DNA from: Ruminiclostridium cellulolyticum H10
Lineage (GTDB): Bacteria; Bacillota; Clostridia; Acetivibrionales; DSM-1351
DNA length: 64,000 nt
Direction: 5' to 3'
Assembly (NCBI RefSeq): GCF_000022065.1
Contig: NC_011898.1
Span: 2,782,501-2,846,500, forward strand
Shown: positions 26,513 to 63,600 of the stretch, piece after piece
Layout of the letters: each line of letters starts with the position of its first letter
Numbering within the stretch: the first letter of the stretch is position 1
Made by a program: the position numbers and the translations under genes
The notes under the pieces: generated by a model
What the model was told of the DNA's origin: nothing
What the model saw: only the letters and a program-made list of their open reading frames with translations
The model's database searches: none

Positions 26513-26554
26513 AAAGCATCCCCCTTTCAGCCCTCAAATTTGTCATGAGCCACG

Positions 26555-29500
26555 CTAAATATCATCTAATTTTGACAACACTTCATCAATTAATATATCT
26601 CCGCTTTCAAAGCCGTCCAGTAATTTGATAATGTCATCATCACCATCGTCTGAGGTTGGAACAGTAACATTTTCATACTTCTTTTGTTCTGAGCCTTCCA
26701 TAAAGTCTGCCAGCTTTGATATTGTTGGATATTTAAAAATATCAATAACCTTGATTTTTCCGGGATATTTTTCATCAATCATTGAATGCATCTGGTTTAC
26801 CAGAAGAGAATTCCCGCCCAAGGAAAAGAAATTATCTTTGGTGCCCACCTTCTTCATGTCAAGAAGCTGGCTCCATATACCTGCCAGAAATCTTTCCACC
26901 TCAGATTCCGGCACTGCATAATTCTCATTGCTTTGGAAAGGTTCGCCAATATCAAGTGCGGCAAGTGACTTTCGGTCTATCTTCCCGTTTGGTGTCAGTA
27001 TCATCTTTTCCAACCATATAAATTGTGCAGGAATCATATAGTCAGGTAGCTTCTTCTCCAGGCAGCCCCTCAGTTCTTCATAGGTGTGTTCTCTTGGGGC
27101 TGTATAGTAGCAGATAAGTTTACTTGTTTCTCCTGACTTCTTTGCCACTACCGCTGCCTGTATAATTTCTTCATTTTGCAGCAGAACATTTTCAATTTCG
27201 CCTATTTCAATTCTATATCCCCGTACCTTAATCATTCCGTCTTTCCTTCCCAGATACTCTATGGTGCCGTCACTGAGATATCTACCCACATCCCCGGTCC
27301 GATAAATAATACTCCCTTTCTCGCCATAAAGGGTGAAGACCTCCCTTGTTTTTTCCTCGTCCTTGTAATAGCCTCTTGTTACATTTAAACCACTTATATA
27401 GATATCACCCGGAATGCCTATGGGACACATTTTTTTACAAGAATCCAGTATTAAAACTTTGTTGTTGGAGATAGGTTTACCTATGGGTATTACTGTTGAA
27501 CTACCGGGATTATCCCGGACATCATGGCTTGTTACCCAAATAGTCGCTTCTGTAGGGCCGTACATGTTTACTATCCTTGCATGATGAAAATATTCCCGAA
27601 TATCTTTTGCCAGCTCGTAGGTCCACGCTTCACCGCCTATCATAATGCACCTTATACGTGAGAAAAGCTCCTGATTACCAAGGGTTTTCCTGCTCTTGAC
27701 AGCAGTAAGCAGTTGTATCATCAATGCCGGAACAGAATGCCATATGGTGACCTTACCGGCATCTATGTATTCCATGAAAAGAGAGCCATCCTTCATCCTG
27801 CTGTCAGGTACTATGCAAAGACACGTACCGCTTAAAAGAGAGCCGAATATTTCAAATACGGAAATATCAAAACTCATAGAGGTCACTAATGCCATTACAT
27901 CTTTATGGCTCAAACTCATATTTTCAATGCTCCAATTCAGATAGTTGACGGCATTTGCATGAGATACTCCAACTCCCTTTGGAAGCCCTGTGGAGCCTGA
28001 CGTATAAATTATATACATGAGATTTTTAGGGTTGGCTTTATTTTTGAGATTATACGGCGACAGGTTTTTTATATCCTCAGCCGTATACTTTATAAGCCCT
28101 GCTGTTTTGCCTGCTCCTTCGGACAGATTTATAACTACTTCCAGACTATTTTCTTCAGTATTTATCATTTCTGTTTTTTCAAAGGAGCTTTGGTCGATTA
28201 TCAAAAATCTTGTCTGGCTGTGCTTCAGCATATAATGTATTCTGTCTGCCGGATAATCAGGGTCAACAGGTACATATGCCCCTCCTGCCTTTAGTATTCC
28301 CAGCATTCCGATTATCATCTCAATGCTCTTGTGAACCATGATTCCTACCGATTCTTCCCTCTTTATACCTTCATTTTGCAATAACCGAGCAAGCTTGTTC
28401 GCCTTTTCATTCAATTCGTTGTAGGTTATACCTGTACCCTCACACATTACAGCTATAGAATCAGGCCTGAATTCAGCCTGCCTTTCGAAAAGCTCATGGA
28501 CGGTAAGTTTTCCTCTATCACCGAAATCGACATCTGTAGCATTGAAAACACCTTCTATTTTTTCCTTTTCTTCTTTTGTAATTATGTCAATATCTGATAG
28601 AGTAATATCAGGGTTATTCAGAACCTGCTCCAGAATATTCAGGAAATGCAAAGACATTCTTTCCACAGTCTCCCTCATGAATATTTTTGTGCAGTATTCC
28701 AGCCTGAAATGCAGGGTGTTTTCTTTTTCTACAGACTCTAATGTCAAATCAAATTTTGAGGATTTACTGTCAAACTCCCGGGACTTAAATCTCAGTCCCT
28801 CTTCTTCTATCTCAGGAAAGCTTGTGTTTTGCATTATAAACATAACGTCAAATAAAGGACTTCTGCTTAAATCTCTTGGGACATTCAATTTATCTACTAA
28901 TTCCTCAAACTGGTAGTCCTGATTTTCATAAGCATTTAAAGCATTATGGCGTACCTCCTGCAGGAAGTTGTGAAATGTTTTTGTTCCCTCAGGTCTGTTT
29001 CTCATAGCCAGAGTATTGATGAATACACCAAGCATATTTTCCAGATCAGCATTTCCACGCCCGGCTACAGGCATTCCAACAATAATGTCCTCCTGTCCCG
29101 TATACTTATAAAGCAAAACATTAAAAACAGCCAGTAGTGTCATGGAGGCAGTAGTCTTTTCACTGGTTTCAACTTCATGAAGCTTTTTTGACATTTCTTT
29201 ATTTAATTCAAAGTACACTGTGTCTCCTTCATAACTTTGCACAGTTGGTCTTGTATAATCAGCTGGCATATTAAGAACAGGGATATCTCCGCTAAACATG
29301 CCCATCCAGTAGTTTTCCTGCTGTTTATATCTTTCACTGCCGTACAGACTGCTCTTCCAAGAAACATAATCCCTGTACTGTACTGTTAATTCCTTAAGTT
29401 CCTTACCTCTGTATAGCTCTATAAACTCACGTGTAAGAATTCCTAAAGATATACCATCGCAAATAATGTGATGAATATCAAACATAATGGTCTTTCTGCC

Positions 29501-39546: not shown

Positions 39547-40818
39547 TTATTGGTTTGGCATTATAAAATCTGCGAAAAGGTGCCTTGTTCCTGTTTCGTC
39601 AAAAACTTGGTTATATCTCTCAACCTGTTCCTGCACCGGTGTTTTTTTAGTTTCAAAAACCGACTTCAACATTTCCAAAGCTTCCTTCATTTGCTCAAGT
39701 GAAGGCTTGTCACCTGTCTTATCTAGTTCTTCCTGCAACCTCTGGATTCTTCTGTATGGTTCTATTACACCCTTTTGATATTCTTCGTTATTCCAGTTTT
39801 TGTTTTTTGTGCAGACAGCTATTGCAAGGCACCTTGTAACAACTGTAGGCTGAGGTAAATTTTCACTTCTGTTAGATGTATTGTTTGTAATTATTTTTCT
39901 AAACTTTTCTATATCCTCAGGCTTATCATATGAAAACGCCTTTATATCCGGTATGTTCTTTATGGCAAGATTCGCAAGAACCGTCTTGGGCCCGATTTCC
40001 ATTACGGTCCTTACACCGTTTTCATAAAGAAATTTCATTGTAGATTCCCACTGAACAGGCTGAACTAATTGTTCTGTAAGCAAGTCAACTAATATGTCTT
40101 TACTTTTATGCGGTAAACCTGTTACGTTAGAAATAACCGTACCCTTAAAATCACCACAAGGATAACTCTCCAATACCTCTCTGAACTTTCCTTTGATGGT
40201 TTCCATTAGAGGACTATGAAACGGAGCACTTACTTTAAGCGGAACAACCATGGCATTAATACCCTGAAGCTCAAGAGAAATCTTTTCCACCGCACTTTTA
40301 TGTCCTGAAATAACAATCTGACTGGGAGAATTATAGTTTGAAATAACAACTATATTATTATCATTTGAATACTCCTCACATTTAGCCTGCAAAATATTTT
40401 TATCGATTCCGCTAACTGCAGCCATTGCTCCAACGCCCGAAGCAGCCGCCTCCTGCATAAGCCGTCCTCTTTGCCTGACTATTTTTACAGAATCAGCAAA
40501 GCTGAATATTCCGGCACAGGCAAGAGCTGATAACTCTCCCAGGCTGTGCCCTGCATAATATGTAGGCAATATTCCGAATTCCTTCATGTAAACCTCATAT
40601 GCAGCGATACTGCAAGTAAGTATTGCAGGTTGTGCATTTTCGGTTTTAGTCAGTTCATCAAGACTTCCGCTGAAGCACAGTTCCTTTAAATCAAAACCTA
40701 AAGCATCATTAGCCTCGTCAAATACGTGTTTTGCAACTGAATAGTTATCATATAGTTTTTTACCCATGCCTTCATATTGCGAGCCCTGTCCCGGAAATAA
40801 CAAAGTAATATTTTTCAT
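39547..40818 (-). CDS. Trans-acting malonyl-CoA:ACP acyltransferase
   Basis: 423 residues. FabD-like fold with PGQGSQ near the N-terminus, catalytic Ser92 (GHSLGE), Arg117 (RQRGRLM, carboxylate binding for malonate) and His201 (PFHSPLM). A ~110-residue C-terminal extension after about 310 (CLAIAVCTKNKNWNNEEY, then helices) matches extensions found on stand-alone ATs of trans-AT PKS systems. It is the only AT in the window, so it should load malonyl units on all four PKS ACPs. The ATG directly abuts the TAA of the large NRPS, with AAGGATG inside that gene's end, so translation is coupled. Confidence 0.92.
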   Translation of the reverse strand: MKNITLLFPGQGSQYEGMGKKLYDNYSVAKHVFDEANDALGFDLKELCFSGSLDELTKTENAQPAILTCSIAAYEVYMKEFGILPTYYAGHSLGELSALACAGIFSFADSVKIVRQRGRLMQEAAASGVGAMAAVSGIDKNILQAKCEEYSNDNNIVVISNYNSPSQIVISGHKSAVEKISLELQGINAMVVPLKVSAPFHSPLMETIKGKFREVLESYPCGDFKGTVISNVTGLPHKSKDILVDLLTEQLVQPVQWESTMKFLYENGVRTVMEIGPKTVLANLAIKNIPDIKAFSYDKPEDIEKFRKIITNNTSNRSENLPQPTVVTRCLAIAVCTKNKNWNNEEYQKGVIEPYRRIQRLQEELDKTGDKPSLEQMKEALEMLKSVFETKKTPVQEQVERYNQVFDETGTRHLFADFIMPNQ

Positions 40819-43800
40819 TTAAATCATCCTTTCGAATACAATATTAATTAAATTTATATACTTGCCTATTAATTCTTCAATTTTGTGTTTTTCTATTCTT
40901 GCTGCATTATACTCTGTAGTAAGAGAAATAACGTTTTTATCAATTTCGGGGTTTATGATAATATCGTATATCCTGCAATCTGCCATACCCCTAGAGTTTT
41001 CACTGCTAAACAGCATTGTTGCAGTGTCTTTTTCTTTATTCGGAGCTACGGTTTTCAACATATCGGTATCATATGAATTTTGTGTATCTTCACACAAGTC
41101 GCTCACTAATGTGAACAAGCTATCCAATTCATCAACTTCACCTATATTCATACCTAAAGGAAGAATCCTGTTTTCGTTATCCGTTATTGTATGAACTACT
41201 ATTCTTTCTTCTTCAGAAACCTGATAAAGAAGATAGAAATATAAAGCTAGCAGGATTTCCTTCAATCCTTGTCCCGAATCTAAAGAGAAGTTGGTAATTT
41301 TATTACTCAAATCACTTGTAAAGGAATATTTGAAAGCTTTATTTTCATATTGTTCGTGCATACTGCCGGTAAAATAATCTTGGGGTAATCGAGTTGCCTC
41401 CAATTCCAATTTATTAACGGCCTTTTTGTCATCCTGAGATATGAATTCTGAAAGCTTTGCTATAGTATTGTGTATGAAAAGTTTTGAAACATTAATTTTA
41501 CCCGGATAGTGTTTTTCCAGTTCTTCATGCATTCTTACCAGTAAAATTGAGTTTCCTCCAAGTTGAAAAAAGCTGTCATTTATACCTATCTGATCACATT
41601 TGAGTATACTTTTCCATATTTCTGCTATTTTCTTCTCAATCTCCGAATTTGCTTCCTTGTACTCTGAATCAATATTGGGACGGGCTGTGCCGGCAGCGGG
41701 CAAAGCTCTGCGGTCTACTTTTCCATTGGGTGTCAACGGTATTGAAGCAAGTCTGACATATATACCGGGAATCATATAGTCCGGCAAATCCCTGCCTATG
41801 TGCTGCATTATTTCAGAAACAGTTATTTCCTCAGATGAAACGTAGTAGCAGATAAGCTGTTTGTTTGAGAACTCATCCTCTTGTGCTATTACAACACACT
41901 CATTAATCAGATTATATTTTAATATGCATTTTTCAATTTCGTCTAATTCAATTCTGTAACCCCTGATTTTTACCTGATTATCTATTCTGCCCATAAAAGC
42001 AATGCTTCCGTCAGGCATCCACTTTGCAAGATCCCCCGTTTTGTACAGTCTTTTTCCGGGAACCAGTTCACTTGAAACAAACTTCTCTTTTGTCAACTCG
42101 GATCTGTTCAGATACCCTCTTGCCAGGCTGTCTCCACCAATACAAACCTCTCCGGCAACACCTATTGGCTGAAGGTTATCTCCATTCATAATTAGTATTT
42201 GCGTATTTGCAATGGGTCCTCCGATACTTACACAGGAATTCTTCGTCAAATCCTTTATAGCTGACCACACCGTGGTTTCTGTAGGCCCGTACATATTATA
42301 TATTTTACCTTTGTATACTTTCCTCAACTCACGGAGTAATGTTTCTGGAAACGCTTCACCACCGATCATGACTTGTTTTACACTATTAAAACAGCTAAGA
42401 TTTTTGAGCTCATTCATTAGTATCTGAAGTGTGGAGGGTGTCATCTGCAGCATATCTATGTTTTTACCGGTAATCAAACCTCTTAACATTCTCGGATCCT
42501 TCTGATGATCTTCATCCGCAATCACTACCTTTAATCCATGGCACAGCGGTAACAGGGTTTCCAAAACAAAAATATCAAAGGATATGGTAGTCAGAGCCAG
42601 AATGGAACTTCCTTTTTCAATTCTTATCTTATCTGTTACTCCCGTCATAAAGTTGCAAACTGCATCATGACTTATCATAACTCCCTTGGGTTTTCCTGTT
42701 GAACCTGATGTATACAGTACATATGCTAAATCCTTTGGATTATTTATGTTTGGCAGATTTTCTCCGCTTTTTTGATTTATGCTCCCATGAGCAAGGTCTA
42801 TAACTTCCCCGTGAAAACTGATTCCTGAATTGAGATTACTATTTGCAAGCAGGATATGTGCGTTACTATCCTCCAAAATAAATCTTAAACGCTCTTCAGG
42901 ATATTCAGGGTCTAGAGGAAGGTAAGCGGCGCCTGATTTAAGAACACCCAGTATTGCAGCAAGCATTTCTAATGACCTTGATACCAGTATTGCAACAAGG
43001 CTGTCTCTTTGGACACCTCTGTCTCTTAGAACTTCTGCAATTCTATTTGCTCTGGTGTTTAAATCCATGTACGTTATTTCTTCACTATTGCAAATGGCTG
43101 CGATAAAGTCTGGATTTTGTATAACCTGTTCTTCAAATAGTTCATGAATCGTTTTGTTTTTTGGATAATCTGCTTTCGTATTATTAAACTCATACAGAAT
43201 CTGTCTCTTTTCAGTGTCACTTAATAAACTTACTTCCGTGATGGGTGTATCAAGGTTTAAGGTTAATGCCTTAATAATATTTTTAAGATGTTCAGCCATC
43301 CTCACAATCGTTTCTTTTCTAAACAACCTTGTACAGTATTCCATAATGAAAATAAGCTTTCCGTCGTCCTCCTTAACTTCAACCGTAATATCGAATTTAG
43401 ATGTTCGGTTATCCATTCCGTAGGGCATAATTGACAGTCCATCAACAACCCTCTCGGATATATTCATATTCTGCATGGTGAACATGGTATCAAACAAAGG
43501 ATTCCTGCTTAAGTCCCTATTTAAATTCAATTTATTTATGAGTACGTCGAATTGATATAATTGATTTTCGTACACCTGTATTGTATTTTCTTTTACATCG
43601 CTCAGGAACATCCCCAACGTCTTATTTCCGTCTACGTTATTTCTCATGGCAATAGTATTTGCGAACATGCCTACCACATTTTCCAATTCAGTTTGTACTC
43701 TACCTGCAATCGGTGAACCTACTATAATATCGGACTGACCCGAATATTTTGACAAAAGAATATTGTATGCAGAAAGCAGTAGCATAAACAAGGTTGTACC

Positions 43801-49800: not shown

Positions 49801-52800
49801 CTCAATATCATTGTTGAAGGAAAACATTGTATCAAATACAGGATTTCTGCTTGTATCTCTGTGTAAATTCAAATTATCAACAAGTTCTTCAAACTGATAA
49901 TCCTGATTATCGTATGCCTCCAGACAGCTTTCCTTTACCCTCTCCAGAAACTCTCTGAATGTACTTTCACTATCTATAGTATTTCTAATAGCAAGAGTAT
50001 TTACAAATACTCCTACAATATTCTCCAAGTCAGAATATGTTCTGCCAGAGACAGGAGTTCCTATAATAATATCCTCTTGCCCCGAATACTTTGAGAGCAG
50101 TACATTGTATGCAGTAAGTAATACCATAAAGAAAGTTGCCTTTGTACCTTCTGCCATAAGTTCCAGTTTTCTCTTGATATTATTATCAATATTAAATTCT
50201 ACTTTGTCTCCCTCATAACTCTTAACAGACGGTCTTGGAAAATCTGTCGGTAAGTTAAGTACAGGAATTTCACCTGAAAATTTATTTATCCAGTATTTCT
50301 CTTGCTTTAGTATCTCGCCTGATTCAAACAATTTGTTCTGCCACTCAGAAAAGTCCTTATATTGAAATTTCAGTTCAGGCAGTTCTTTTCCTTCATATAG
50401 TTGTAAGAACTCCTTTATAATAATATTAATAGATAATCCATCAGCAATTATATGATGCATATCAATTAACATAAGGTGCTTACTATCCGCCAATCTAATT
50501 AATCCTACCCTGAATAACGGTGCTTTCGCCAGGTCAAAGGGTTTTATAAAACTACCAATGGCCTTTAACAAGTTATAATCCGGCTGTATTTGTTCTATTT
50601 TAAATTCAGCACTAGCCGTAATTCGTTGGACAGGAACTTGTCCATTAAATTCGAAGACTGTCCTAAATGCATCGTGACGATTTATTAGTTCTGAAAATAT
50701 TTTTTCCATGTGTGAAATGTCAAGGTCACCTTCTATAATAAACGCTGCTGGCATATTGTAGCTGGTGTTTACTTCATCAAATTGATTTAATATGAAAAAC
50801 CTCTTTTGAGCCGAAGACAGGCAATAATAATCTCTTTCCTCTACAGGTTTCAAATTTATATATAAAGCCTTGCTTTTGCTGTCTATGTATTTAGCAATAC
50901 CCTCTATATTGGGAGTAGATAGTAAAATACTTATGGGAACTTCTACGTTTAAATCTTTAAAAATCCTGGAAGACAGAGTTATTGCCTTGAGAGAATGCCC
51001 CCCTAATTCATAAAAGTCATCTTTTATACCTAATTTTTCTATTTGAAATACATCCTGCCAGATTGGAACCAGTGACTGTTCTGTATTGTTTCTTGGTTCT
51101 ATATATTCTGTTCTCTTCTTTAAGGTATCCTTAGGATTTGGTAGTGCGTTTTTATCTAATTTCCCATTTATTGTAAGGGGCATTTTTTCAATTTGTACAA
51201 AATATGTGGGTATCATATACTCAGGAATTTTGTCTGAGAGATGCTCTCTTAATTGTGTTACTCCTAACTTCTCATTTGCTGTGAAATAAGCACATAAAAC
51301 CTTATTCTCAGAATCTTCTTTCCTGTCAGTTACTACAGCTTCCCTTATATTTTCATGTTTCTGTAGCTGAGCCTCAATTTCACCCAGTTCTATTCGGTAT
51401 CCTCGTATTTTTACCTGACCGTCTTTTCTTCCGATAAATTCAATATTCCCATCCGGCAGCCACCTTCCCAGATCCCCGGTTTTATACATTTTTTTATCAA
51501 CATTAAAAGGATTAGGTATAAAACGTTCCGAAGTCATTTGTTCCCTGCTCAGATATCCTACTCCCACACCTGTACCGGATATATATACCTCTCCTATACA
51601 GCCCCGGGGAATCAGTTCTTGGTTCTCACCTAAAATATAAACTTGAACGTTTGGCATTGGCTTTCCAATAGGTATGATTTTTGAACCCGCTAAATCACTG
51701 GGGTTCAAGGTATAAAAGGTGGAATCAACACAACACTCGGTTGGCCCGTATACATTGGTTATTTCAGGAGTATTGCCTTCAAATCTGCTGTAGAATTTCT
51801 CTACAGTTGTGTAGTGTAGGGCTTCTCCTCCGATTATAAAGTGTTTGACCTTCATATTTTTAATATCTGAGGACGCATTCAGGGCAAGCCCGGCCAAATG
51901 GTTTGGTGTGCCGTCAGATATGTCTATTTTGTTCTCAATATAAAACCCTTCAAGCTTTTTGCCGTCAGATCTCACATCATCAGGTACTATATACAAACTA
52001 TGCCCAAACAAAAGTGATGTAAATATTTGTTGTACAGAAGCATCAAATACGAAAGGAGCTACAATAGCAACTTTCAATCTACCAATATATTTTCTGTATA
52101 TATTCAGCTCCAGGCCGTTCACAAGGTTTACAACGTTTTCCAAAGTTATCATTACGCCTTTGGGCTCTCCTGTGGAACCTGATGTGTATATTACGTATGC
52201 CAGGTCGTCCGCACCTCTCGAAATCAGAGGATTATCACAGGATGAATTATTAAATGCTTTAGAATTTAAATCTATGATAATTCCGTTATACTCAAGTTCG
52301 TGAGAATGTGTATTCTGAACAAGCACAGCCTTTGCATCGCTATCCGTCAGCATGTATTCAATTCTTTTGACAGGGTAGCTTGGGTCAATTGGCAGGTATG
52401 CACATCCGGCTTTTAATATCCCCATTATTCCTATAATAGTATCTGCTGATCTTCCGGAAATCAGACCGACTATATCACCTTTTTTCAGTCCTTTTTCAAT
52501 AAGCATTTGGGCTGCTTTGTTTGCTTGAACGTTTAGCTGCTTATATGTCAAACTCTTTTCACTGCATACTACCGCAGTATCCTCAGGCCTTATTGCTGCC
52601 TGTTCTTCAAACATATCAATTATTGTTTTTTTATTTTCAAATTTGTAATCCGTATTATTAAAGGCATTAAGCAGGGTATCTTTTTCTTCTTTATTCAGAA
52701 TGCTGAATAATCCAATCCTTTGATCAGGATTTTTGAGGCATTCCTCCAAGGTGGTCATAAAATAGTTATATATTCTTTTTACTGTGCATTCATTATAGAT

Positions 52801-53409
52801 GGTATCGGAATATTCCAGCGTGAAATCTATTCCAATTTCACTATGTCTATAAGATATTATAAGATTATGCTTTTTATCTCGAACTGTTTTATTGTGGAGA
52901 TTTTGAGATAGAAAAAGTATATCATAGACATTTTTCTCTATGCCCAGTTCGCTTAGTATTTTTTCCAGGGGATACTCCTGGTTTTCATAGGCCGCAACCA
53001 CGTCTTCTTTGGTCTTTTTAAGTAATTCCTTATATGATTGGTTCCTATTAACCAGATTATGTATGATTATCTCATCATTAAAAAACAAGTCCTTACTGCT
53101 ACCCTTATAAACGGGGCTCAAAACGTGCAGACTATTCTTCCCAGAGTACTTATACAGGAAAACCTCAAAAGCGGTGAGAAGAATTATAAAGATAGACATT
53201 TCAGAGCCTTTACCTATTTTGATAATTCTATCCGTAATATCAGACTGAACAGTAAAATAAAGCTTTTTATTCAATTCTCTTTCAGTACTTGCGTTAAAAT
53301 CCAGTTCAATCATTCTGGTTAACTCTATATCTGATAGTTGTTTACACCAAAAATCCCTTTGTTCCCTATACTTTTTTGACGAAAGCAATATATTGTCATA
53401 GGTTTTCAT
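40819..53409 (-). CDS. Four-module NRPS flanked by half condensation domains
   Basis: 4196 residues. 1-275: C-terminal lobe of a C domain without the HHxxxDG lobe. A1 (near 411) pocket D-A-Q-D-I-G-V-V-D, close to the Gln code of lichenysin; PCP1 near 803. C2 HHIIADG near 986; A2 near 1455, pocket D-L-K-N-F-G-T-D-I, not assigned; PCP2 near 1845. C3 HHIISDG near 2030; A3 near 2520 is unusual (YSHTVAAIDIF without the pocket Asp; LFGASE for YGPTE); PCP3 near 2908. C4 near 3100 has HHIISDA; A4 near 3568, pocket D-I-L-Q-M-G-M-V-W, glycine-like; PCP4 near 3950 (LGGNS). From about 3965 to the end comes an orphan C-lobe-like domain (LPQDYF, LLALYFYLLYQV). No E, MT or TE domain. Good RBS (GGAGG). Pocket readings are by eye. 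Confidence 0.92.
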   Translation of the reverse strand: MKTYDNILLSSKKYREQRDFWCKQLSDIELTRMIELDFNASTERELNKKLYFTVQSDITDRIIKIGKGSEMSIFIILLTAFEVFLYKYSGKNSLHVLSPVYKGSSKDLFFNDEIIIHNLVNRNQSYKELLKKTKEDVVAAYENQEYPLEKILSELGIEKNVYDILFLSQNLHNKTVRDKKHNLIISYRHSEIGIDFTLEYSDTIYNECTVKRIYNYFMTTLEECLKNPDQRIGLFSILNKEEKDTLLNAFNNTDYKFENKKTIIDMFEEQAAIRPEDTAVVCSEKSLTYKQLNVQANKAAQMLIEKGLKKGDIVGLISGRSADTIIGIMGILKAGCAYLPIDPSYPVKRIEYMLTDSDAKAVLVQNTHSHELEYNGIIIDLNSKAFNNSSCDNPLISRGADDLAYVIYTSGSTGEPKGVMITLENVVNLVNGLELNIYRKYIGRLKVAIVAPFVFDASVQQIFTSLLFGHSLYIVPDDVRSDGKKLEGFYIENKIDISDGTPNHLAGLALNASSDIKNMKVKHFIIGGEALHYTTVEKFYSRFEGNTPEITNVYGPTECCVDSTFYTLNPSDLAGSKIIPIGKPMPNVQVYILGENQELIPRGCIGEVYISGTGVGVGYLSREQMTSERFIPNPFNVDKKMYKTGDLGRWLPDGNIEFIGRKDGQVKIRGYRIELGEIEAQLQKHENIREAVVTDRKEDSENKVLCAYFTANEKLGVTQLREHLSDKIPEYMIPTYFVQIEKMPLTINGKLDKNALPNPKDTLKKRTEYIEPRNNTEQSLVPIWQDVFQIEKLGIKDDFYELGGHSLKAITLSSRIFKDLNVEVPISILLSTPNIEGIAKYIDSKSKALYINLKPVEERDYYCLSSAQKRFFILNQFDEVNTSYNMPAAFIIEGDLDISHMEKIFSELINRHDAFRTVFEFNGQVPVQRITASAEFKIEQIQPDYNLLKAIGSFIKPFDLAKAPLFRVGLIRLADSKHLMLIDMHHIIADGLSINIIIKEFLQLYEGKELPELKFQYKDFSEWQNKLFESGEILKQEKYWINKFSGEIPVLNLPTDFPRPSVKSYEGDKVEFNIDNNIKRKLELMAEGTKATFFMVLLTAYNVLLSKYSGQEDIIIGTPVSGRTYSDLENIVGVFVNTLAIRNTIDSESTFREFLERVKESCLEAYDNQDYQFEELVDNLNLHRDTSRNPVFDTMFSFNNDIEEIELENLKLFPYDISNGQTKFDLSLNAFDDGQVIHFSLEYCTKLFKRETAEKITRHFTKILDQVVLNPEIRLSDIDILTTEEKRHLLFDLNSTKREYPFYSGIHQLFEEQVQKTPHNIALIFEGKQLTYHELNEKSNRIAWYLIEKGVREDSVVGIMVERSMELVIGIMAILKAGGAYLPIDPDYPKERIDFLINNSNTSMLLTGKKISEDMYLENTETIAVREVLDNNNLPVTNLNLEYNPERLMYVIYTSGSTGNPKGVMVKSHSFVNLLNWFVREFDIGEKDCNLIIAPASFDLAQKNFFSTLVTGGCLCIFSPGLYDYERMSEVINKEHVTMINCTPSAFYPLIDFNADSGFLRLQSLSRVFLGGEPINMGKLLPWRKSMAYSADIVNTYGPTECTDIASFYRIDNNIIEQETAVPIGKPIDNVQIYILDKNQKLVPQGMVGELCIGGIGLTRGYYNDPGLTKERFIECEGISGRKVYRTGDLAKWTQEGNIEFLGRVDNQVKIRGYRIEMGEIEASILSHPAIREAVAIAKEDSTGGKYICAYIVSDTGLSITELRDYLQKSLPGYMIPSRFVQIEKMPLTPNGKINRKALPEPDRISLTETERQKPQNELEERLADIFKEILNTDILGVTENFFDLGGNSLSAMILSLRINKEFNTEVSLTNIFTMSTIRQLANYINQKENKAVYDVIEVQPEREYYPMSQAQRRMFILNQIEDTQTSYNIYGAVLIEGNLDIGKLESAAKELLQRHEILRTSFEVVNGEPCQLVHKDVEFGLEIIKNNDVESEDLDNKITGFIRPFDLSKALLIRIGLIPLEEKRHVVIMDMHHIISDGTSVNILLKDLFALYKGKDLPPVKIQYKDFSVWQNKLLKSEIMKGQESYWLETFKGEIPVLNLPIDYPRPPIMDFKGEVYEFEIDEFTTSKIRNLASESNTTMFMILLSSYNVLLSKLTGQDDIIVGVPSAGRKHADIQNTVGMFINTIALRSNPGKNRTFMDFLQEVRKNSLEAFEYQDFQFELLLDMLGIKRDLSRNPLFDTVLNFYNMNDSDNNYMSDETDFNLYPYEVKNNVAKFDIVLYASETDERLKFYCNYRTSLFKSSTIEYIMGEYVKLLGIIADEPEKLIRDYYIFSRESIVNKRNPIVLKNNGPEKSGTIKEHKTLVESIEKQVEEHRESTAVKTHDRLVTYGELNDSANNIANIILKKSKSNDRVTLLFEHGADMIIGILGVLKTGRSYVPLDPAYPEERLVDIFKDSGAEILVTNDKNLKYAEELVHILNRKVYLINIDKVDLISPANNPKIAIEPEQTAYILYTSGTTGKPKGVMQSHKNIMELVGNYAEELLISHADRLGLTTSYSHTVAAIDIFSALLNGAGIYPYDLKNKGSIENMSNWIEENSISILHTVPSIYRYFIKSIDKTKRISDTRLIILGGEVVYSSDIEEYKLLFSDDCIFVNLFGASEILVATFYLVDKNTQVNTRTVPIGYELEGVSIQLLNDDNKAAGIYECGELVYHSHYLSQGYWNLDEKTNHQFERNPETGEVIAYKSGDLARLLPSGTIEHLGRKDTQVKIRGMRIELTEIESVVGGLKGIRECAAIVLEKPNQENTIVVFYVPENEEVIENKQFKLMLKSKLPEYMIPSLLYPVESIPHTPNGKVDRKALSIKNVDVKEEAAYEPPTNQVEERMTEIWSEILEIGKIGVNENFFELGGHSLKATSLVSRIHKAFQVEVKLGEVFSYPTIRELAKLITDSVKENYKPIKPVGKKENYPASSAQKRLFILNQIEDAKTTYNIPGAAIINGVLDREKVERAFNKLVQRHESLRTAFSIVNGELVQIVKDKIDLKVTFLEVEKVPGTKESTDEIIEIFKEFVKPFDLSKAPLLRVALIKIDLDKHILLYDIHHIISDATSIGILVNEFIDAYCGKELRELKVQYKEFSTWQNELLKTDIIKKQEEFWLDYFKGELPLLNLPTDYTRPSTQSFEGDTLSFELDGELLQLLKKTANKTGTTLFMLLLSAYNILLSKYSGQSDIIVGSPIAGRVQTELENVVGMFANTIAMRNNVDGNKTLGMFLSDVKENTIQVYENQLYQFDVLINKLNLNRDLSRNPLFDTMFTMQNMNISERVVDGLSIMPYGMDNRTSKFDITVEVKEDDGKLIFIMEYCTRLFRKETIVRMAEHLKNIIKALTLNLDTPITEVSLLSDTEKRQILYEFNNTKADYPKNKTIHELFEEQVIQNPDFIAAICNSEEITYMDLNTRANRIAEVLRDRGVQRDSLVAILVSRSLEMLAAILGVLKSGAAYLPLDPEYPEERLRFILEDSNAHILLANSNLNSGISFHGEVIDLAHGSINQKSGENLPNINNPKDLAYVLYTSGSTGKPKGVMISHDAVCNFMTGVTDKIRIEKGSSILALTTISFDIFVLETLLPLCHGLKVVIADEDHQKDPRMLRGLITGKNIDMLQMTPSTLQILMNELKNLSCFNSVKQVMIGGEAFPETLLRELRKVYKGKIYNMYGPTETTVWSAIKDLTKNSCVSIGGPIANTQILIMNGDNLQPIGVAGEVCIGGDSLARGYLNRSELTKEKFVSSELVPGKRLYKTGDLAKWMPDGSIAFMGRIDNQVKIRGYRIELDEIEKCILKYNLINECVVIAQEDEFSNKQLICYYVSSEEITVSEIMQHIGRDLPDYMIPGIYVRLASIPLTPNGKVDRRALPAAGTARPNIDSEYKEANSEIEKKIAEIWKSILKCDQIGINDSFFQLGGNSILLVRMHEELEKHYPGKINVSKLFIHNTIAKLSEFISQDDKKAVNKLELEATRLPQDYFTGSMHEQYENKAFKYSFTSDLSNKITNFSLDSGQGLKEILLALYFYLLYQVSEEERIVVHTITDNENRILPLGMNIGEVDELDSLFTLVSDLCEDTQNSYDTDMLKTVAPNKEKDTATMLFSSENSRGMADCRIYDIIINPEIDKNVISLTTEYNAARIEKHKIEELIGKYINLINIVFERMI

Positions 53410-54584: not shown

Positions 54585-57500
54585 CTAGAACTCAAAATCA
54601 ATTTCATCCATAATGCTTGCTTTTTGGTTTAGAGAGGTTCCGTCTTCCCGTTCCTCTAAAAAATCAATGTCTTCTATTTTTATTTCTGGTTCTTCAATAA
54701 CTATTTCAAGTAATTCTTTATAGTATTTAATAAAGTTGTCCATACTGTCTGATCTAAAAAGTGCAGTTCTGTATCTGAAGTCGATTGCTATGTCCCCATC
54801 AACCTTCACAGCATCAATTGTTAAATCAAACTTACTTGTAGTAACGGGAATATTAACAGGCATCATCTTGAAATCATCTACATCGATTCTCTCTTCTCTC
54901 CGAGTCATAAGTGCAAAAGTTATGCTGAAAAGAGAATTTATTTTGGTGTTTTTTTGAGCCTCCAGCCTGCTTATCATCATTTCAAAGGGATAATCCTGAT
55001 TTTCGAAGGCTCCAAAGCAGTTATCCCTTACCTCTTCCAGAAATCCTGCAAAGGTTTTGTTACCGGAGGGGAAGTTTCTCATTGGAAGCATATTTACAAA
55101 CATGCCTACGGTGTTTTCAACATCGGTGTGAATTCTTCCTGATATAGGTGACCCGATAACAATATCCTCCTGTCCTGTATATTTGGAAAGCAGTATGTTA
55201 TAGGATGCAAGCAGTAGCATAAAAAGTGTTACTCCTTGTTTTTGACTGAATTTGTCAAGTCTCTCCGTCAAATCGGCACCCAACTTAAAACTAATACTTT
55301 TTCCTGTATAGTCAGGGACGCTTTCATCATGTTCCTTTTTGTCCACGGGTAAATGTAATACAGGTATATCCCCCGAAAAAATATTTAGCCAGTAATTTTC
55401 CTGCTCTAAAAATTCCTTACTTGAGAACAACTGATTCTGCCATACCGAATAATCCTTGTACTGGGTTCCGGGTTCAGGTAATTCATTATCTTTATATATA
55501 TCAATAAATTCCTTAATAATAATATCGCTGGATGCCCAATCGGTTACAATGTGGTGAAAATCCATCAGCAATAGGTATCTGTCCGATGAGAATTTTACCA
55601 AAAGAGTCTTTACTAATGGCCCTTTATTAAGGTTGAAAGGTTTGACAAAGTCCCTGATAATAGTTTCAGTTTTCTTTTCATCAGCCTCAAAATATCTGAA
55701 GTCGGGTTTGTAATCTTTATGCACTATCTGGGATATACTTCCATTTACTTCTTTGAAGGTTGTCCTTAAAGACTCATGTCTTTGAATTATCCTGCCTATA
55801 GAATTCTCAACACGTTGGATATTAAGCCTGCCTTCAACCATAAGTGCCACAGGTATGTTATAGGTTGTACCGATGTTTCCGTATTGCTCCAATATATACA
55901 ACCTTTTCTGACTGGATGACACAGGATAATAATCACTCTTTTCCGCCTTGCCAATAGGCAGGCTTTTCAATGATGCCTGCTTTGTTTCTGCAAATTCAGA
56001 ATCTATATACTTTCCCAGCTCATAAATGCTTTGATTGTTCATTACATCTGTTATACTGATATTTATTCCCCATGTATTGCGTATAACATTTGTTATTTTC
56101 ATGGCGAAAATAGAATCTCCACCTTGGTCATAGAAACTGTCATATACATTTATTTCGTTGGATTGGAATATCGATGCCCATATATATCCAATTGCTTGCT
56201 CCGTTTTTGTTATTTGATCGTCGGTTTTTCCGGTGAGCTTTATGTCCACAGTGTCCTGCTTGGTGGTTCCAGCTATAATATCAGACTTCCGGGTTTTCTT
56301 ACTCCTGTCAAGAACAGCACTTAATTCAGGCTCAAGTGTTACAGGAAGGGACTCCTTCAGTCCTGCCAGCAGGTTGTAATTCAACTGCCCTGCTATTACT
56401 CTCGGCTGCCCTGATTTCAGTACCTCATCAAACACCCTTACCCCATTGGCAGTACTTAATACCATAAAAACACCATCTCTGTCTGCATTATGCTCTTTAG
56501 CCATACCGGTTTCTTTCCATGCCGCCCAGTTTATACAAAATGTTGGCTGGTTTCTTTTATTCCTGTAATAACAATACGTATCCATATAATAATTAGCCGC
56601 AGTGTAATCACTTTGTCCTGCACTGGTTGTAAGTGTCTCCGCAGAGGAAAACAGTAAAAGGAAGTCCATATTTAAATTGCTTGTAAGACTGTCAATTATC
56701 CATGTCCCTTTGACCTTGGCAGCCATTACTTCTTTTATCCTCTTTTCATCCTTCGTTATTGCAAGTCCATTTCCGGCAATGCCTGCGCTATGGATTATTC
56801 CGTTAATTTTTCCGTAGTTTTTTATTACATCCTCAATTATTAACTTCATAGACTGCATATCAGATACATCACCGTTATAGTATGTTACCTTACTGCCAAG
56901 GCTTTCTATATCCATAATTGATTTGATTTTGTTGCAAAGTTTTAAATCCTTCTCTGTTTCCAGAATCGTGTCCCACTGGCTTCTTTCAGGCATTTCTGAA
57001 CGGTTTATCATAATAACGTTCAGGTTTGTACCCGAAGCCATATGTTTTGCTATTTCCAGCCCGATGCCTCCCAGACCGCCTGTTATAATATACACTCCAT
57101 TTTCCCTGATTTTTACGCTATTGCTTGGATTCTGCTCCCGTTTCACCCTCTTGAGCTGTTCAATGTACCTTCGTCCGTTTCGGAATGCAATCATACGTGT
57201 CTTATGTACGGTTTGGAACTCTGAAATAATGGACTCTGCCTCACAGCCTTCGTCCATATCTATACACTTGATTTTTAAATTTGGGTATTCCTTTTTTAAT
57301 ACAAAAGCCATGCCGAACAAGGCTGCATTCTCAGGATTTAAGCATTCCTCATTTCCGGTTACACTATTGACGTATGTGGAAAGTATTACTATTTTTATAT
57401 CCTTCCCTGTATTTTTTTGCATCCATGCTTTGGTGAGCCTGAATAAATTGTAAACACTATTTTCAAGCTTGTTCTCAAGTATCTTTATATCGGAGGTATC

Positions 57501-60500
57501 AGGCAAGCCTGAATCTGGTGAATACACAATATAGTTTATATCCTTGATACTTTCCTGCGAAAATAATTGATAAAAGTCTTCTTGTGAGTACCCTACAGAA
57601 TATTTGTCTTTTCCCAGTACACCGTATTCTTCTCCGGTATTAACCTCTATTACTTTGATTCCCTTTGCTTCAAGCCTGTTTATAATTTCATTGCAGCTTC
57701 TGCTCTTATCACTGAAAAACAAAGTACTTTTATTTCCGTCTAACAAATCAAATGCTTTATCCTGTGCAGTATCCGAATATTCAACCCACTCAATAGAGTG
57801 AAGTAAATCGGTTTTGTTTAAAAGTTGTCCGGCATCTTTTTTGGTTACATACCTGTCAACCTCCATTAAAACCCTTCTGTTTTCATCAACCAGAGTAATG
57901 TTATATTCAATTGTTCTGTCGGAATTATTCAATATTCTTACATGGCTTATGATCTTTGAAGATATAGGGTTGTGTATTTTAACTGAATTAAAATGGAAAG
58001 GAAAATAAAAACCAGCCTTCTCTGCCTGGTCTCCCGCAAAATTCAAGGCTGTGTCAAGCATTGGCGGATGTAACTGGAATTCATCAAAGTCACCCTTGTA
58101 TTCCTCCCCAAGCTCAAGATATCCCAGTGCTTCATTTGTACCGCTAAAAGCCTTTGTCAGGCATTGCCACCTTTTGCCCACTTCTACAACCGCATTTTTT
58201 TGTTTGTTTTCTATATCCCATTCATTGGTACATCTCTGTAATGCCTCTGTCATATCATATTTATCTGACAACTTTTCGGTGCCATAAATCCTGCCCTGTG
58301 CATGTTCAATCCAACCGTTTTCAGCTGTCTTGGATTTACTGGCTATTACAAATTTCAAGAAACCGTACTCTTTCATAATAACCGTATGAAGTTCAACCTT
58401 ATCCTCTTCGCCAACAATTAACGGAGTTAGCAGAGTAAGCTCTCTTATCTCCACTGCCTTACCCGGGTAGTATTTTTTTGAGGTTTGCATTGCCAGCTCA
58501 AGATAAGCTGTTCCTACAAGCATGTAGTTGCCCCCTACCTTATGTTCTCTTAACAGCCATTGATTTTCCACGCTTATCTCAGCAGTATAAACTTCCTGAT
58601 TTATGGTGTCAGAAATACGGTATCCCGGAAGCTTGTACCTTTCCCCATGACTTTCCTGTACACTCTCCTTCATTTGTCTCTTTGTATCAATCCAGAAGCG
58701 TTTTCTGTTGAAGGGATAAGTGGGCAGGCTTACCTTATTTTCAGATTTATAAAGGAAATCCCAATCAATATCCCCACCTGTTGTATATAAAATACATATT
58801 TCCTCAAGAGTTCCCCTGTTATAATTACCACTGGTTACAAGTTCTTTCAGCCTTTCAGACGCTGTTTTGCTTAATTCTCTCTTATCTGTTTCCGAAATAT
58901 ATCCGTCGTTTTTTATTCCTTCACTATTTCTTACCACTTTATGGTAACCATAGTATACGCCTTGCTCCCTTATACCTTTAGGCTGCAGGTCTGCAAGCTT
59001 GGATATTTTTTCCTCCATATCATGCCTGTTTTCCAGTATCAGGGCAATTCTAAGCGAATGATGCATTCTGCCCGTGTTCTGGGTAAAGCAGATATCTTCT
59101 ATGGACACTTCTTTATTCTTTTTCAGGTATTCATCAAAGCTTTTTAGTAAACTATACAGGGATTTCTCATTTTTAGCCGAAAGTGTTAAAACCTGTAGTT
59201 TGCTTTGTGGGTTTTCTGATTTTCCTTTGCTGTTAGGTGCTTCTTCCAAAATCATGTGACAATTTGTACCACTAATACCAAAAGAGCTTATCCCGCATCT
59301 CCTTGGGTAGCCCATTGTCTCCCATTCATGAAGACGGTCATTTACATAAACAGGCGAATCTTCAAACATTATTTTCCTGTTAGGCCTTTTGAAATGCAGG
59401 GTCGGCGGTATCTGACCATACTGAATACAGAGTACTGCCTTTATCAGTCCGGCAATACCTGCCACGTTGTCCAGATGCCCTATATTTGACTTTACAGAAC
59501 CTATTGCACAAAACTGCTTTTTATCTGTATATTTTTTAAATGCCCTTTTAATACCATCTATCTCTATTGGATCACCAAGTTTTGTTCCTGTCCCGTGAGC
59601 CTCAATATATGACAATGTTTCAGGATTGATGCCGGAATCTTCCCAGGCTTTAACTATTGCATCTCTTTGGGCAAGTGAATTAGGAGCAGTAATTCCTATA
59701 GAACTTCCGTCATTGTTAGCTGCACTTCCTTTAATAACCGCATAAATATGATCTTTGTCATTTAATGCCTGCTCCAGCGGTTTTAGCAGTACAGCAGCCA
59801 CCCCTTCTCCTATTCCTGTGCCGTCAGAGTTATCATCAAATGTTCTTGCCTTGCCGTCTGACGAAGCAATGCCTACATTCTCACTGTCATCTGTTTTTAA
59901 AGGCAGAAGCAATGTTTTTATTCCTCCTGCTACTGCTATATGGCATTCTCCGTTCCGTATAGCCTGACATGCCAGATGTACTGCCATAAGTGATGATGAG
60001 CAGGCCGTATCCACCAGCATACACGGGCCCTTTAAATCAAGTATGTATGCAATCCTGCTGGCCAGCATGGAATTCACATTGCCTGCCAGGGATTCTGGTG
60101 CAAGGGAAGCTTCGCTTTCCCAAAGAAGTGTTTCGTATGTGGGCTTTGAACCGCTGTACCCTATATATACACCTGTTTTGCTGCCCATAATTCTCTTGCC
60201 GCAGTATCCTGCATCCTCAATTGCCTCCCAAACATTTTCCAGAAATAATCTTTGGTTGGGATCCATCAGGCTGGCTTCTCTGGGTGATATATTGAAAAAA
60301 TCGTTATCAAATTTATCAAGTTCTTTAAAAAATGCACCCTTCAAATACTCGGTATTACCTTTTTTATTACTGAACTTACTTGCAAAATGCATACAATCAC
60401 TTTGCCTGGTGCCTGAGAGGTCTGTTATCAAATCTTTTCCGTCTTTTATGTACTCCCAATACTGACTAAGATTTTCTGCAGCACCAAACCTCCCCGACAT

Positions 60501-60605
60501 TCCTATGATAGCTATATCTTTCTTTGATATGTTCTCCTTGAGAATTCTATTTTCTGCAAGGGAAAACAATTCGTTCTTATTGAGATTAAGCAGTTTATTA
60601 ACCAA
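54585..60605 (-). CDS. Hybrid PKS-NRPS: KS-DH-KR-ACP-C
   Basis: 2006 residues from a TTG start (GGGGG 7 nt upstream), 15 nt after the preceding NRPS. KS about 30-460 (VDTACSSSL near 200, EAHGTGT, NIGHL). DH near 687 with EHKVGGNYMLVG, where the usual Pro of HxxxGxxxxP is Val, and HPPMLDTAL. KR GGLGGIG near 1178 with FSSAETLTTSAGQSDYTAAN. ACP near 1491 with DQGGDS. A complete C domain from about 1560, HHIVTDW near 1683, where the usual Gly is Trp. It ends in an acidic tail, MDEIDFEF. A terminal C domain requires an A domain supplied by the next protein; the large NRPS, which starts without an intact C, fits. No AT. Expected outcome: one two-carbon extension, then amide formation. Confidence 0.92.
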   Translation of the reverse strand: MVNKLLNLNKNELFSLAENRILKENISKKDIAIIGMSGRFGAAENLSQYWEYIKDGKDLITDLSGTRQSDCMHFASKFSNKKGNTEYLKGAFFKELDKFDNDFFNISPREASLMDPNQRLFLENVWEAIEDAGYCGKRIMGSKTGVYIGYSGSKPTYETLLWESEASLAPESLAGNVNSMLASRIAYILDLKGPCMLVDTACSSSLMAVHLACQAIRNGECHIAVAGGIKTLLLPLKTDDSENVGIASSDGKARTFDDNSDGTGIGEGVAAVLLKPLEQALNDKDHIYAVIKGSAANNDGSSIGITAPNSLAQRDAIVKAWEDSGINPETLSYIEAHGTGTKLGDPIEIDGIKRAFKKYTDKKQFCAIGSVKSNIGHLDNVAGIAGLIKAVLCIQYGQIPPTLHFKRPNRKIMFEDSPVYVNDRLHEWETMGYPRRCGISSFGISGTNCHMILEEAPNSKGKSENPQSKLQVLTLSAKNEKSLYSLLKSFDEYLKKNKEVSIEDICFTQNTGRMHHSLRIALILENRHDMEEKISKLADLQPKGIREQGVYYGYHKVVRNSEGIKNDGYISETDKRELSKTASERLKELVTSGNYNRGTLEEICILYTTGGDIDWDFLYKSENKVSLPTYPFNRKRFWIDTKRQMKESVQESHGERYKLPGYRISDTINQEVYTAEISVENQWLLREHKVGGNYMLVGTAYLELAMQTSKKYYPGKAVEIRELTLLTPLIVGEEDKVELHTVIMKEYGFLKFVIASKSKTAENGWIEHAQGRIYGTEKLSDKYDMTEALQRCTNEWDIENKQKNAVVEVGKRWQCLTKAFSGTNEALGYLELGEEYKGDFDEFQLHPPMLDTALNFAGDQAEKAGFYFPFHFNSVKIHNPISSKIISHVRILNNSDRTIEYNITLVDENRRVLMEVDRYVTKKDAGQLLNKTDLLHSIEWVEYSDTAQDKAFDLLDGNKSTLFFSDKSRSCNEIINRLEAKGIKVIEVNTGEEYGVLGKDKYSVGYSQEDFYQLFSQESIKDINYIVYSPDSGLPDTSDIKILENKLENSVYNLFRLTKAWMQKNTGKDIKIVILSTYVNSVTGNEECLNPENAALFGMAFVLKKEYPNLKIKCIDMDEGCEAESIISEFQTVHKTRMIAFRNGRRYIEQLKRVKREQNPSNSVKIRENGVYIITGGLGGIGLEIAKHMASGTNLNVIMINRSEMPERSQWDTILETEKDLKLCNKIKSIMDIESLGSKVTYYNGDVSDMQSMKLIIEDVIKNYGKINGIIHSAGIAGNGLAITKDEKRIKEVMAAKVKGTWIIDSLTSNLNMDFLLLFSSAETLTTSAGQSDYTAANYYMDTYCYYRNKRNQPTFCINWAAWKETGMAKEHNADRDGVFMVLSTANGVRVFDEVLKSGQPRVIAGQLNYNLLAGLKESLPVTLEPELSAVLDRSKKTRKSDIIAGTTKQDTVDIKLTGKTDDQITKTEQAIGYIWASIFQSNEINVYDSFYDQGGDSIFAMKITNVIRNTWGINISITDVMNNQSIYELGKYIDSEFAETKQASLKSLPIGKAEKSDYYPVSSSQKRLYILEQYGNIGTTYNIPVALMVEGRLNIQRVENSIGRIIQRHESLRTTFKEVNGSISQIVHKDYKPDFRYFEADEKKTETIIRDFVKPFNLNKGPLVKTLLVKFSSDRYLLLMDFHHIVTDWASSDIIIKEFIDIYKDNELPEPGTQYKDYSVWQNQLFSSKEFLEQENYWLNIFSGDIPVLHLPVDKKEHDESVPDYTGKSISFKLGADLTERLDKFSQKQGVTLFMLLLASYNILLSKYTGQEDIVIGSPISGRIHTDVENTVGMFVNMLPMRNFPSGNKTFAGFLEEVRDNCFGAFENQDYPFEMMISRLEAQKNTKINSLFSITFALMTRREERIDVDDFKMMPVNIPVTTSKFDLTIDAVKVDGDIAIDFRYRTALFRSDSMDNFIKYYKELLEIVIEEPEIKIEDIDFLEEREDGTSLNQKASIMDEIDFEF

Positions 60606-60620: not shown

Positions 60621-63600
60621 TTAATATTCGTTTACATTCAGCTCCTCAAGTATTTTTTCTAGGACTACCGTGTGTGCTGAAAACAATTTTTCCATGCTTC
60701 CCATACTCAATCTTGAATAATCGTATGTATAAATCAGCTTTATACTGTCAGCCTCCTCTGTCATTTTAACGTGAATGTCATAGGGTCTGTTCATTTCATT
60801 AGGAAGGTCGCAGTTTATGCTGAATAACGGCAGTACGGTGTTATGTTGTTTACCGGCTATATTTATCCTCTCTAAAGAACAAATATTTTTTTTCTGCGGA
60901 TAAATACGCTGTTGTCCGATTAATTCAACAAATTTCACAAGACTATCCGCTTGTGATAAGTCCGTGGTTATCAGGCAAATAGCATTTCCCCATTCACCTT
61001 TTGCATGAAGAGTTAGTTGATTATCCCCTATTATTTCGCAAAGAAGGTATATAAATGCTCCCATTACAATATCACTGGATTTTAAATCGTTTTTTCCTGA
61101 AATAGCTTTTAATGCACTGTATGTTTCACGGCTGAGTACATATTTGTATATTTTTTCCTCAAAGTCCTCATTTTCTTTGATAAAGTATTCTTCCGGCAGA
61201 ATAATCCCGGAGGCTTCAACCGCATTTGCAAATTCAGGTGCATCCTTTTCTGACGATATTAATTTAGCCAGCTTTGCGATTGTAGGAAAAGCAAAAATAT
61301 CGGAGACCGTTAATTTATCCGGATAAATTTCTTCTATCCGAGAGTACATCTCCATAAGTCGAATAGAATTTCCTCCTAAGTCAAAAAAGTTTTGATTTGT
61401 ACCTGCTACCTCTTTACCGAGAACCTCCTCCCACACTTTTATAAGCTCCTCTTCAATGTAGTTTGTCGGTGCCTCACACAAATCATTCAGTACAGTTTCC
61501 ACATCAGGCTCCGGTAGCATTTTCCTGGCAATCTTACCGTTAGGTGTTTTAGGGAATGAATCCAGTTTGATAAAGTGCTGAGGTACCATATAATTAGGTA
61601 ATCTTACTGAAAGGTACTCTTCCAGTTCCTTATTTTTAATATTTGCATTCAATACTGTATAAGCACACAAGGTTTTCTGTCCGTCAAGATCATTAACTGT
61701 AACTACAGCCTCAATCACATTGGTATGCATTTGCAAATGATGCTCAATTTCTCCGATTTCAATTCTGTAGCCTCTTATTTTAACCTGCTGATCTATTCTT
61801 CCAATAAACTCAATATTTCCGTCAGGCAGCCATCTAGCCATATCCCCTGTCCTGTACATAGTTTCACCAGGTATGAAGGGATTATCAATAAATTTCTCAG
61901 CTGTCAGCTTATCTGCATTGAAATAACCTTTTGCCAAACCGTGTCCCGATACACACAATTCACCCGGTACACCGATAGGCTGCAATTTATCATTCCTGTC
62001 CAGAATATAACACTTGGTATTGTTGATTGGTTTACCAATCAACACCTCCGTCCTGTCCTTGTCGAACTCATAAAATGACGTACAGACACTGTTTTCCGTC
62101 GGTCCATATTCATTTACCAGCCTTACATTGCCAAGCTTTTCAAAGTGTTTACTGACTAAGGTGCTGGTGAAGCTTTCACCTGCAATAGTGATAATTCTTA
62201 CATTCTTCATACTGTCTGAAATCTCATCCAGTAAAACTCTGTAAAAACTTGGTACAACCAGCAAGTTTGTAATTTTTTGCTTAATAAAAATTTCTCTAAG
62301 CTGAGGAAGGTCAAACCTGTCCTCTTGGTTTATCAATACAAGTCTTGCACCTGAGATAAGTGCTGTAAAAATATCTTCAACAGAGCTGTCAAATGAAAAA
62401 GACGGAATTTGAAGTACTGCATCATTAGGATTAAAACCGTAATACTTTCGTCTCCATTCAAGTGTGTTGACAATTGACTTATGCTCAATCATTACGCCTT
62501 TTGAATTTCCGGTGGAACCTGAAGTATATATTATATAAGCCAGATTGTCAGGCGATGGCTTTATATTGGGCTCAATACAGTCAAAGCATTCAATTTCCTC
62601 ATTTTTTATACAGATAGTATTGTATCCGCTGTCAATTCTTTCAGCTAATTCGTATGAAGTAAGTAATAAGTCTGTATTGCTATTATTTAACATATACTGT
62701 ATTCTGTGACTAGGGTACTCAGGGTCTATAGGCAGATATGCCGCCCCGGCTTTCAGTATTCCTATTACCCCGGCAACCATGTCTATAGAACGATTAACCA
62801 TAATACCCACTACACTGCCGGGCTTTACTCCTCTACTCTGCAAAAAACCCGCTATTCTGTTTGCCTTTGCATTTAACTCACAATAGGAAAGCTCAGTCTG
62901 TTCATGGACTATCGCTATATTGTCCGGAGTACGTCTTACCTGCTCAATAAAAAGCTCCACCAGAGTTTTATCCCCTCGAAGTGCGGTTTCGGTGTAATTA
63001 AATTCATACAGTATCCGATGCTTTTCGCTATCCGTCAATATTCCTATGTCTGCAATCGTCTTGCTTGCATCCTTTATAATTTGCCTGAGTATGTTCATAT
63101 AGTGCGTTATCATTCTTTGTGCTGTTTCCTGTTTGAAAAGCTTTGTACTGTATTCAAGGTAGCACGGTATGGTTTCGCCTCCGTCACCTATTTCCAGTGA
63201 AAAATCAAATTTGGACATATTGTACTTGAAATGGTAATAGTTAAATTTCAGATTATCTATAGCTATGTCGGGCAGTCCCATATTTTGTACTATAAACATA
63301 GTATCAAACAGTGGATTCCTGCTTGCATCCCTTTTTATTCCAAGGTCATTTACAAGGTCATCAAATTGATAATCCTGATTCTTAAAAGCATCCAGAACAT
63401 TTATTCTAACCTTTTCAAGAAAATCAGTAAATTTCATTTCGTATTTTGGACAGTTCCTTAGTGCAACAGTATTTACAAACATACCTATCATGGACTCCAC
63501 TTCCGGCAGTTCACGTCCCGCAACCGGAGAACCCACAATGATATCCTCCTGACCGGTATATTTTAAAAGCAGGATATTGTAAGCTGCAAGAAGTATCATA

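Follow-up and report, generated by a model that had tools for sequence, protein, structure and literature searches.

Split NRPS-to-PKS joints must hand the peptide from a PCP to a KS. The docking types covered by a review of the field are COM, PAX, betaHD, class 1, class 2 and trans-AT (PMC9113145). COM domains, a helix-hand system, connect the E and C domains of an NRPS, and helical PKS docking domains (class 1, class 2 and trans-AT four-helix) use paired short helices to link a carrier protein with the following subunit's KS (PMC9113145). In betaHD docking, a C-terminal donor peptide meets an N-terminal domain of about 60 aa with an alpha-beta-beta-alpha-alpha fold, typically on a C or Cy protein (PMC9113145, PMC13324335). 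The docking review (PMC9113145) contains no device of the kind reported here for the PCP-to-KS direction, and the word “lobe” is absent from it. A literature search, confined to open-licence papers, did not find an earlier description of a docking class based on a tail derived from the second lobe (C-lobe) of a condensation domain. The tail pairing reported here recurs in almost one hundred gene clusters from bacteria that are only distantly related, and it seems to represent a docking type not yet described.

The window analysed is a stretch of 64,000 nucleotides from Ruminiclostridium cellulolyticum H10. Tail 1 is a lone condensation-domain C-lobe of 192 aa (60624..61199, minus strand) that runs from LPEEYF at 61199 to 60624, in an ORF ending at 60621 on the minus strand. 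It was defined by own-genome search, alignment with the C-lobes of the window, AlphaFold2 modelling with structural search, and a tree. A spacer of about 20 residues separates it from the PCP directly before it (61257..61448, minus strand; Pfam PP-binding, E 2e-12, residues 851-914 of the translated stretch). The host protein is a KS-KR-ACP-C-A-PCP-tail hybrid of 2508 aa (G000:C1:2843121-2850647), the start of which lies beyond the window. The next gene, 54585-60605, encodes a KS-first PKS, and its KS (59256..60533, minus strand; phmmer KS similarity and sequence) is expected to take over the peptidyl chain from the PCP that precedes tail 1. The tail 1 ORF and the KS ORF are in one frame, with a single TAA and a gap of 15 nt (window 60605-60623). 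A reading of this DNA made from the sequence alone had described about 200 residues after the PCP that resemble only a second lobe, without an HHxxxDG lobe and followed by a KS-first protein, and this description held. The stretches LPEEYF, VMGAFIYLLCEII, RPYDIHVKMT and SIKLIY all lie in the ORF where they had been placed, neither a first lobe nor HHxxxDG occurs between the PCP and tail 1, the 192-aa tail is a second-lobe homologue, and protein 54585-60605 starts with a KS. The same reading had taken the tail 1 protein for the first NRPS of the cluster, which was mistaken because an NRPS with a tail of its own lies upstream at 2854554-2860235. Near the cluster end, the window also holds a transposase-like two-ORF insertion element (12931-14369).

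Homology of the tail to condensation domains was assessed by sequence and by fold. Tail 1 alone fell below the threshold of Pfam Condensation and gave no match, whereas PF00668 matched 13 of 15 tails (best E 7.8e-12). A profile of the 15 tails matched the second lobe of solved C domains, with TycC matched at E 1.2e-8 in two consecutive pieces in order. In an alignment with the C-lobes of ordinary C domains from the window, two stretches had no counterpart in the tails: the GRxxxxLENxVGMFVNTLAxR segment and some 20 residues ahead of the FDL motif. In C domains, both stretches lie at the lobe junction. AlphaFold2 folded the tail with a pTM of 0.82, both with C-lobe rows in the alignment and with tails only, and a structural search aligned the tail with C, Cy, E and X domains over their second lobe. 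The model that included C-lobe rows matched the second lobe of SgcC5 (residues 221-458) with a VIA Z of 18.1, and the tails-only model matched residues 214-458 with a VIA Z of 18.5 (rmsd 3.0, 192 aligned). The possibility that the C-lobe rows had forced the fold was rejected, as the tails-only repeat gave the same fold. A confident unrelated fold would have refuted the sequence-only reading; a C-lobe was obtained instead. The likeness of the tail to the second condensation-domain lobe thus reflects homology, not chance. By sequence and fold it qualifies as a second lobe of the condensation superfamily, in the sense of homology only, and without a first lobe or HHxxxDG it does not qualify as a catalytic C domain (PF00668).

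A whole-genome search with tail 1 returned three further tails (E 4e-8 or better), which brings the genome to four. Tail 2 is a lone C-lobe (40822..41388, minus strand; own-genome E 3e-9 and alignment) at the C-terminus of the four-module NRPS 40819-53409. Tails 3 and 4, both from the own-genome search, end the upstream NRPS 2854554-2860235 (G000) and the NRPS 1165829-1172257 of a separate cluster, respectively. Pairwise identity among the four is only about 20% in alignment. Each forms the very end of its NRPS protein, and the next PKS gene is KS-first in all four cases, with a stand-alone AT gene in between in two of them. A pattern scan of genome contigs with tail 1 alone as the query did not find relatives, and the alignment of 15 tails was too diverse for a pattern search. 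Profile searches detected tails in 10 of the 11 genomes of the genus, in 8 of the 30 genera of the order, in few genomes of the remaining class and phylum samples, and in a second family, f119 (53 of 245 genomes, 11 of 19 genera). At least 93 tails, including the genome's four, were found in total. Within the order, an E-value gap separates tails (4e-24 or better) from ordinary C domains (3e-20 or worse). At locus L048 (5114-5761) the PCP and the tail are on two ORFs, owing either to a frameshift or to a sequencing error in the draft genome.

A downstream KS-first partner was present in 49 of the 54 rows of the first set, and the remaining five comprise a duplicate record, a contig end and an orthologous group in three genomes. 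In f119, which took no part in forming the partnering rule except for locus L139, all 40 tails occupy the C-terminus of their protein, and a KS-first protein comes next in 35 cases. Over both sets, window included, a tail is followed by a KS-first protein in 83 cases and by a C-first or A-first protein in none, so that the tails satisfy the functional definition of a docking domain as far as placement at a subunit end and a single kind of partner are concerned. The three NRPS-to-KS joints that lack a tail have a short helix on either side, as judged from sequence, and helical N-termini and tails are mutually exclusive at a joint. The window itself offers a contrasting PCP-to-KS joint (26411..26641, minus strand) that has neither a tail nor a short motif, and in which the C-terminal helix DDDIIKLLDGFESGDILIDEVLSKLDDI of 26555 faces the helical N-terminus of 21671-26512.

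The N-terminal extensions of 49 tail-following KS-first proteins were compared with those of 28 other KS-first proteins. The former are short (mean 31 residues) and carry a hydrophobic motif (MLDFNSIKL, KLLDLKGIKL, KLLNLNKNEL) with a consensus of about K-L-L/I-D/N-L/F-x-x-I-K-L, approximately KLLDLxxIKL or MLDFxxIKL, whereas the latter begin with a helical docking domain of about 40 residues, such as MELVKNYIYKQVANHSLSQGEAKQLLLEL. In the window, the short N-terminal motif MVNKLLNLNKNE of 54585-60605 (60570..60605, minus strand), recognised by this comparison and by an out-of-sample test, is the proposed ligand of tail 1. The N-terminal extension MNEMINKSMKLKDIKIDKLPDLKN of 26555-37651 (37580..37651, minus strand), the next KS-first protein after tail 2 and one classed with the tail-following set, is the proposed partner of tail 2. 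There are no binding data for either. The consensus is matched poorly by the tail-following N-termini of L046, L048, L136, L182, L197, L203 and L139. Because hand-made regular expressions for the motif separated the two classes of N-termini only moderately, they were replaced by leave-one-out profiles, which classed 71 of 74 N-termini correctly. The sole error in the helical class was a genuine short motif, belonging to L113's second KS protein. Without any adjustment, the profiles were right for 53 of 54 N-termini in f119 (34/35 tail partners and 19/19 others). The profiles were trained mainly on Clostridia, and many of the classified N-termini are mutual orthologues, which leaves fewer independent cases. 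Against the helical profile, tail-following N-termini scored near zero, with the exception of L212 (an artefact of an over-long start), compared with 21-50 bits for the other KS-first N-termini; by this measure, tail joints do not have a helical PKS docking domain. Mimicry of a C-A linker by the motif was considered and rejected: a profile of 20 linkers scored tail-following N-termini no better than other N-termini or shuffled sequences. Two successive KS-first proteins at L113 (4512-8372 and 8435-13243) carry short motifs (EKLFDLKRV and MEKLIDLKRG) after a single tail. This double motif could reflect a branch or the bypass of one PKS module.

Similarity among tails was correlated with similarity among the N-termini once KS identity had been corrected for (partial Mantel r 0.29, p 0.001), as it was for the motif part alone (partial Mantel 0.19, p 0.02), and this co-variation could be due in part to shared ancestry. 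The sequence-only reading had suggested that the tail is an interface that presents the peptidyl-PCP to a KS. That suggestion now has strong genomic support from the one-sided partnering, the distinct KS N-termini and the co-variation. We consider it probable that the tail is a C-terminal docking domain, derived from a C-lobe, that passes the peptidyl-PCP to the KS by way of a short N-terminal peptide. On this view, a monophyletic C-lobe domain attached after the final PCP of the NRPS subunit would read the short linear motif with which the partner PKS subunit begins, binding being inferred, and this reading would bring the peptidyl-PCP to the KS of that subunit. The tail would stand in for the helical docking domains that other joints in these assembly lines use. 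The proposal builds on established homology, fold, placement after the PCP, KS-first partnering, a distinct KS N-terminus, exclusion of helical docking, purifying selection (see below) and co-variation; binding between tail and motif, and selection of the KS through such binding, are inferences.

Since a dedicated KS peptide, which the sequence-only reading had not mentioned, replaces the helical docking domain, the tail likely contacts this N-terminal peptide rather than the body of the KS, in the absence of binding or transfer data. The explanation that otherwise survives best is an NRPS-to-KS interface in which the tail touches the KS body or holds the PCP, and in which the short KS N-terminus is merely a plain lead-in where helical docking is needless. 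In its favour, carrier-protein sites of genuine C domains are formed in part by the C-lobe. Moreover, AlphaFold2 chains in which tail 1 was fused to the KS N-terminus, with the stop codon read as Gly, placed the motif at low confidence (pLDDT about 50-70, partly helical), so that the motif lacks a confident position on the tail. Against this stand a motif that is shared by the N-termini of tail-following KS proteins and is predictive across bacterial families, and the co-variation of these N-termini with the tails after KS correction, weaker for the motif alone. Contact with the KS body or the PCP is therefore regarded as unlikely, although it keeps some weight beside docking through the peptide.

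A stand-alone trans-acyltransferase gene (39547..40818, minus strand; Pfam Acyl_transf_1, E 1.5e-41) and a radical SAM gene lie between tail 2 and the KS-first protein 26555-37651, and the gene order tail-AT-KS is common in relatives. The X domain is a catalytically dead condensation domain that recruits P450s, and the tail might similarly be a recruitment platform for a trans-acting enzyme, with the trans-AT as the obvious candidate. The AT gene between tail and KS in many clusters and the X domains among the tail's structural matches are compatible with such a role. However, an adjacent AT gene is missing from many clusters, the KS subunits that follow helical joints depend on the same AT without having a tail before them, and recruitment leaves the KS N-terminal motif unexplained. 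We consider this role very improbable.

In a tree with C-domain lobes, all 53 first-set tails fell into one clade (support 1.0), and dN/dS over the tail was 0.12-0.31 in seven close pairs; tails evolve under purifying selection. The single clade and these ratios argue that the tail is neither a scar nor junk that has been produced repeatedly. A functionless scar of a full C or E domain lost in rearrangement of an assembly line could account for a fragment of a longer known domain and for a tail 1 under the Pfam threshold, but it is largely refuted by this evidence, by the identical truncation in two distant families and by the strict KS partnering, and we give it scarcely any credence. Least credible is that the tail, a C-lobe without an N-lobe, is one half of a split condensation domain whose first lobe comes from another protein, as the GRxxxxLENxVGMFVNTLAxR and pre-FDL stretches are absent from tails and the next downstream synthetase subunit starts with a KS and never with the N-lobe that would have to be supplied in trans.

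Some operons have the tail-bearing NRPS as their final synthetase gene. In these, the PKS that comes first is KS-first, has no upstream partner and usually bears the motif, as in G975 (MAKLLKFDKRS), G910 (MAKLLNFDLKS) and G926 (MAKLLNFDIKS). G857 has three tails and three KS-first proteins of the short type, one of which (LLKQLLHTN...) matches the profile poorly. The first KS of the G004/G006/G007 group has a short, non-helical N-terminus that the classifier favours weakly, and contig C3 of G945 is a further exception, unresolved at a contig end. The pairing of a last tail with an unpartnered first KS thus suggests that the last synthetase of these operons hands over to the first.

A lone C-lobe also occurs in the opposite orientation. 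The NRPS 40819-53409 begins with one (52648..53400, minus strand; Pfam Condensation, E 8.7e-13, profile positions 186-354 only), and the acidic-aromatic C-terminus MDEIDFEF of 54585-60605 (54588..54611, minus strand) is its proposed ligand, without binding data. All eight NRPS proteins that start with a lone C-lobe are preceded by a protein whose last domain is a full C domain and whose C-terminus is acidic-aromatic; the tips include DEIDFEF (window), EEIEFVF, SDIDFSF and DEDFGDI. The loci are the window, L040, L102, L103, L104 and L126, with another in G857. Judged by sequence alone, the N-terminal C-lobe and the acidic-aromatic tip may possibly form a second docking pair that uses the same lobe reversed. 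Between the PKS gene 54585 and the NRPS gene 40819 lies a small gene (53446-54552), the ORF of which is in frame with the NRPS gene that follows and the product of which ends in DFDIDFNF (window 53449-53472). This end resembles that of the 54585 protein, which would allow a trans-acting enzyme to share the dock. The C-A-PCP proteins of L043 and L044 have an N-terminus of about 85 residues that resembles a classical beta-hairpin docking domain, and the preceding protein ends in EEYEF or EEFEF. It seems that betaHD docking coexists with C-lobe tails in the same clusters.

More broadly, Bacillota may use a separate C-lobe docking code for split NRPS-to-PKS handovers, with one motif-bearing KS subunit per tail even where gene order and chain order differ, and the mirrored use would make the C-lobe a general peptide-reading dock; we offer this wider generalisation tentatively, as something short of an even bet. 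Given one motif-bearing KS per tail, such a code could be read to order subunits. If the proposal is true, a pair orthogonal to helical and beta-hairpin docking explains the specificity of joints in clusters with many KS subunits, subunit order becomes predictable in non-colinear clusters, and engineers gain a new connector. Half of a catalytic domain would have been reused as a connector, as the whole domain has been in the X domain.

Compared with known systems, the tails are homologous in sequence and fold to the second lobe of PF00668 domains and differ from these by the missing first lobe, HHxxxDG and lobe-junction segments. The X domain of glycopeptide NRPSs (4TX3) is likewise a non-catalytic domain of condensation fold that serves as a recruitment platform, but it is whole and two-lobed and recruits P450s, whereas the tail has a single lobe and precedes a KS. 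COM domains (PMC9113145) share with the tails their position as docking elements at the ends of NRPS subunits, although the tails join a PCP to a KS. Helical PKS docking (PMC9113145) serves the same step from carrier protein to the KS of the next subunit and is present at other joints of the same clusters, but relies on paired short helices, unlike the tails. The SLiM/betaHD pairs of TubC, EpoB, Bamb_5915 and the rhabdopeptide system (PMC9113145, PMC13324335) resemble the proposed tail pair in that, at carrier-protein joints of hybrid lines, a folded domain of one subunit recognises a short disordered peptide of the other. The tail is not itself a betaHD domain, being C-terminal, 190 aa long and of C-lobe fold, and the arrangement is inverted: the folded C-lobe is at the C-terminus of the donor, the peptide is at the N-terminus of the acceptor, and the acceptor is a KS.
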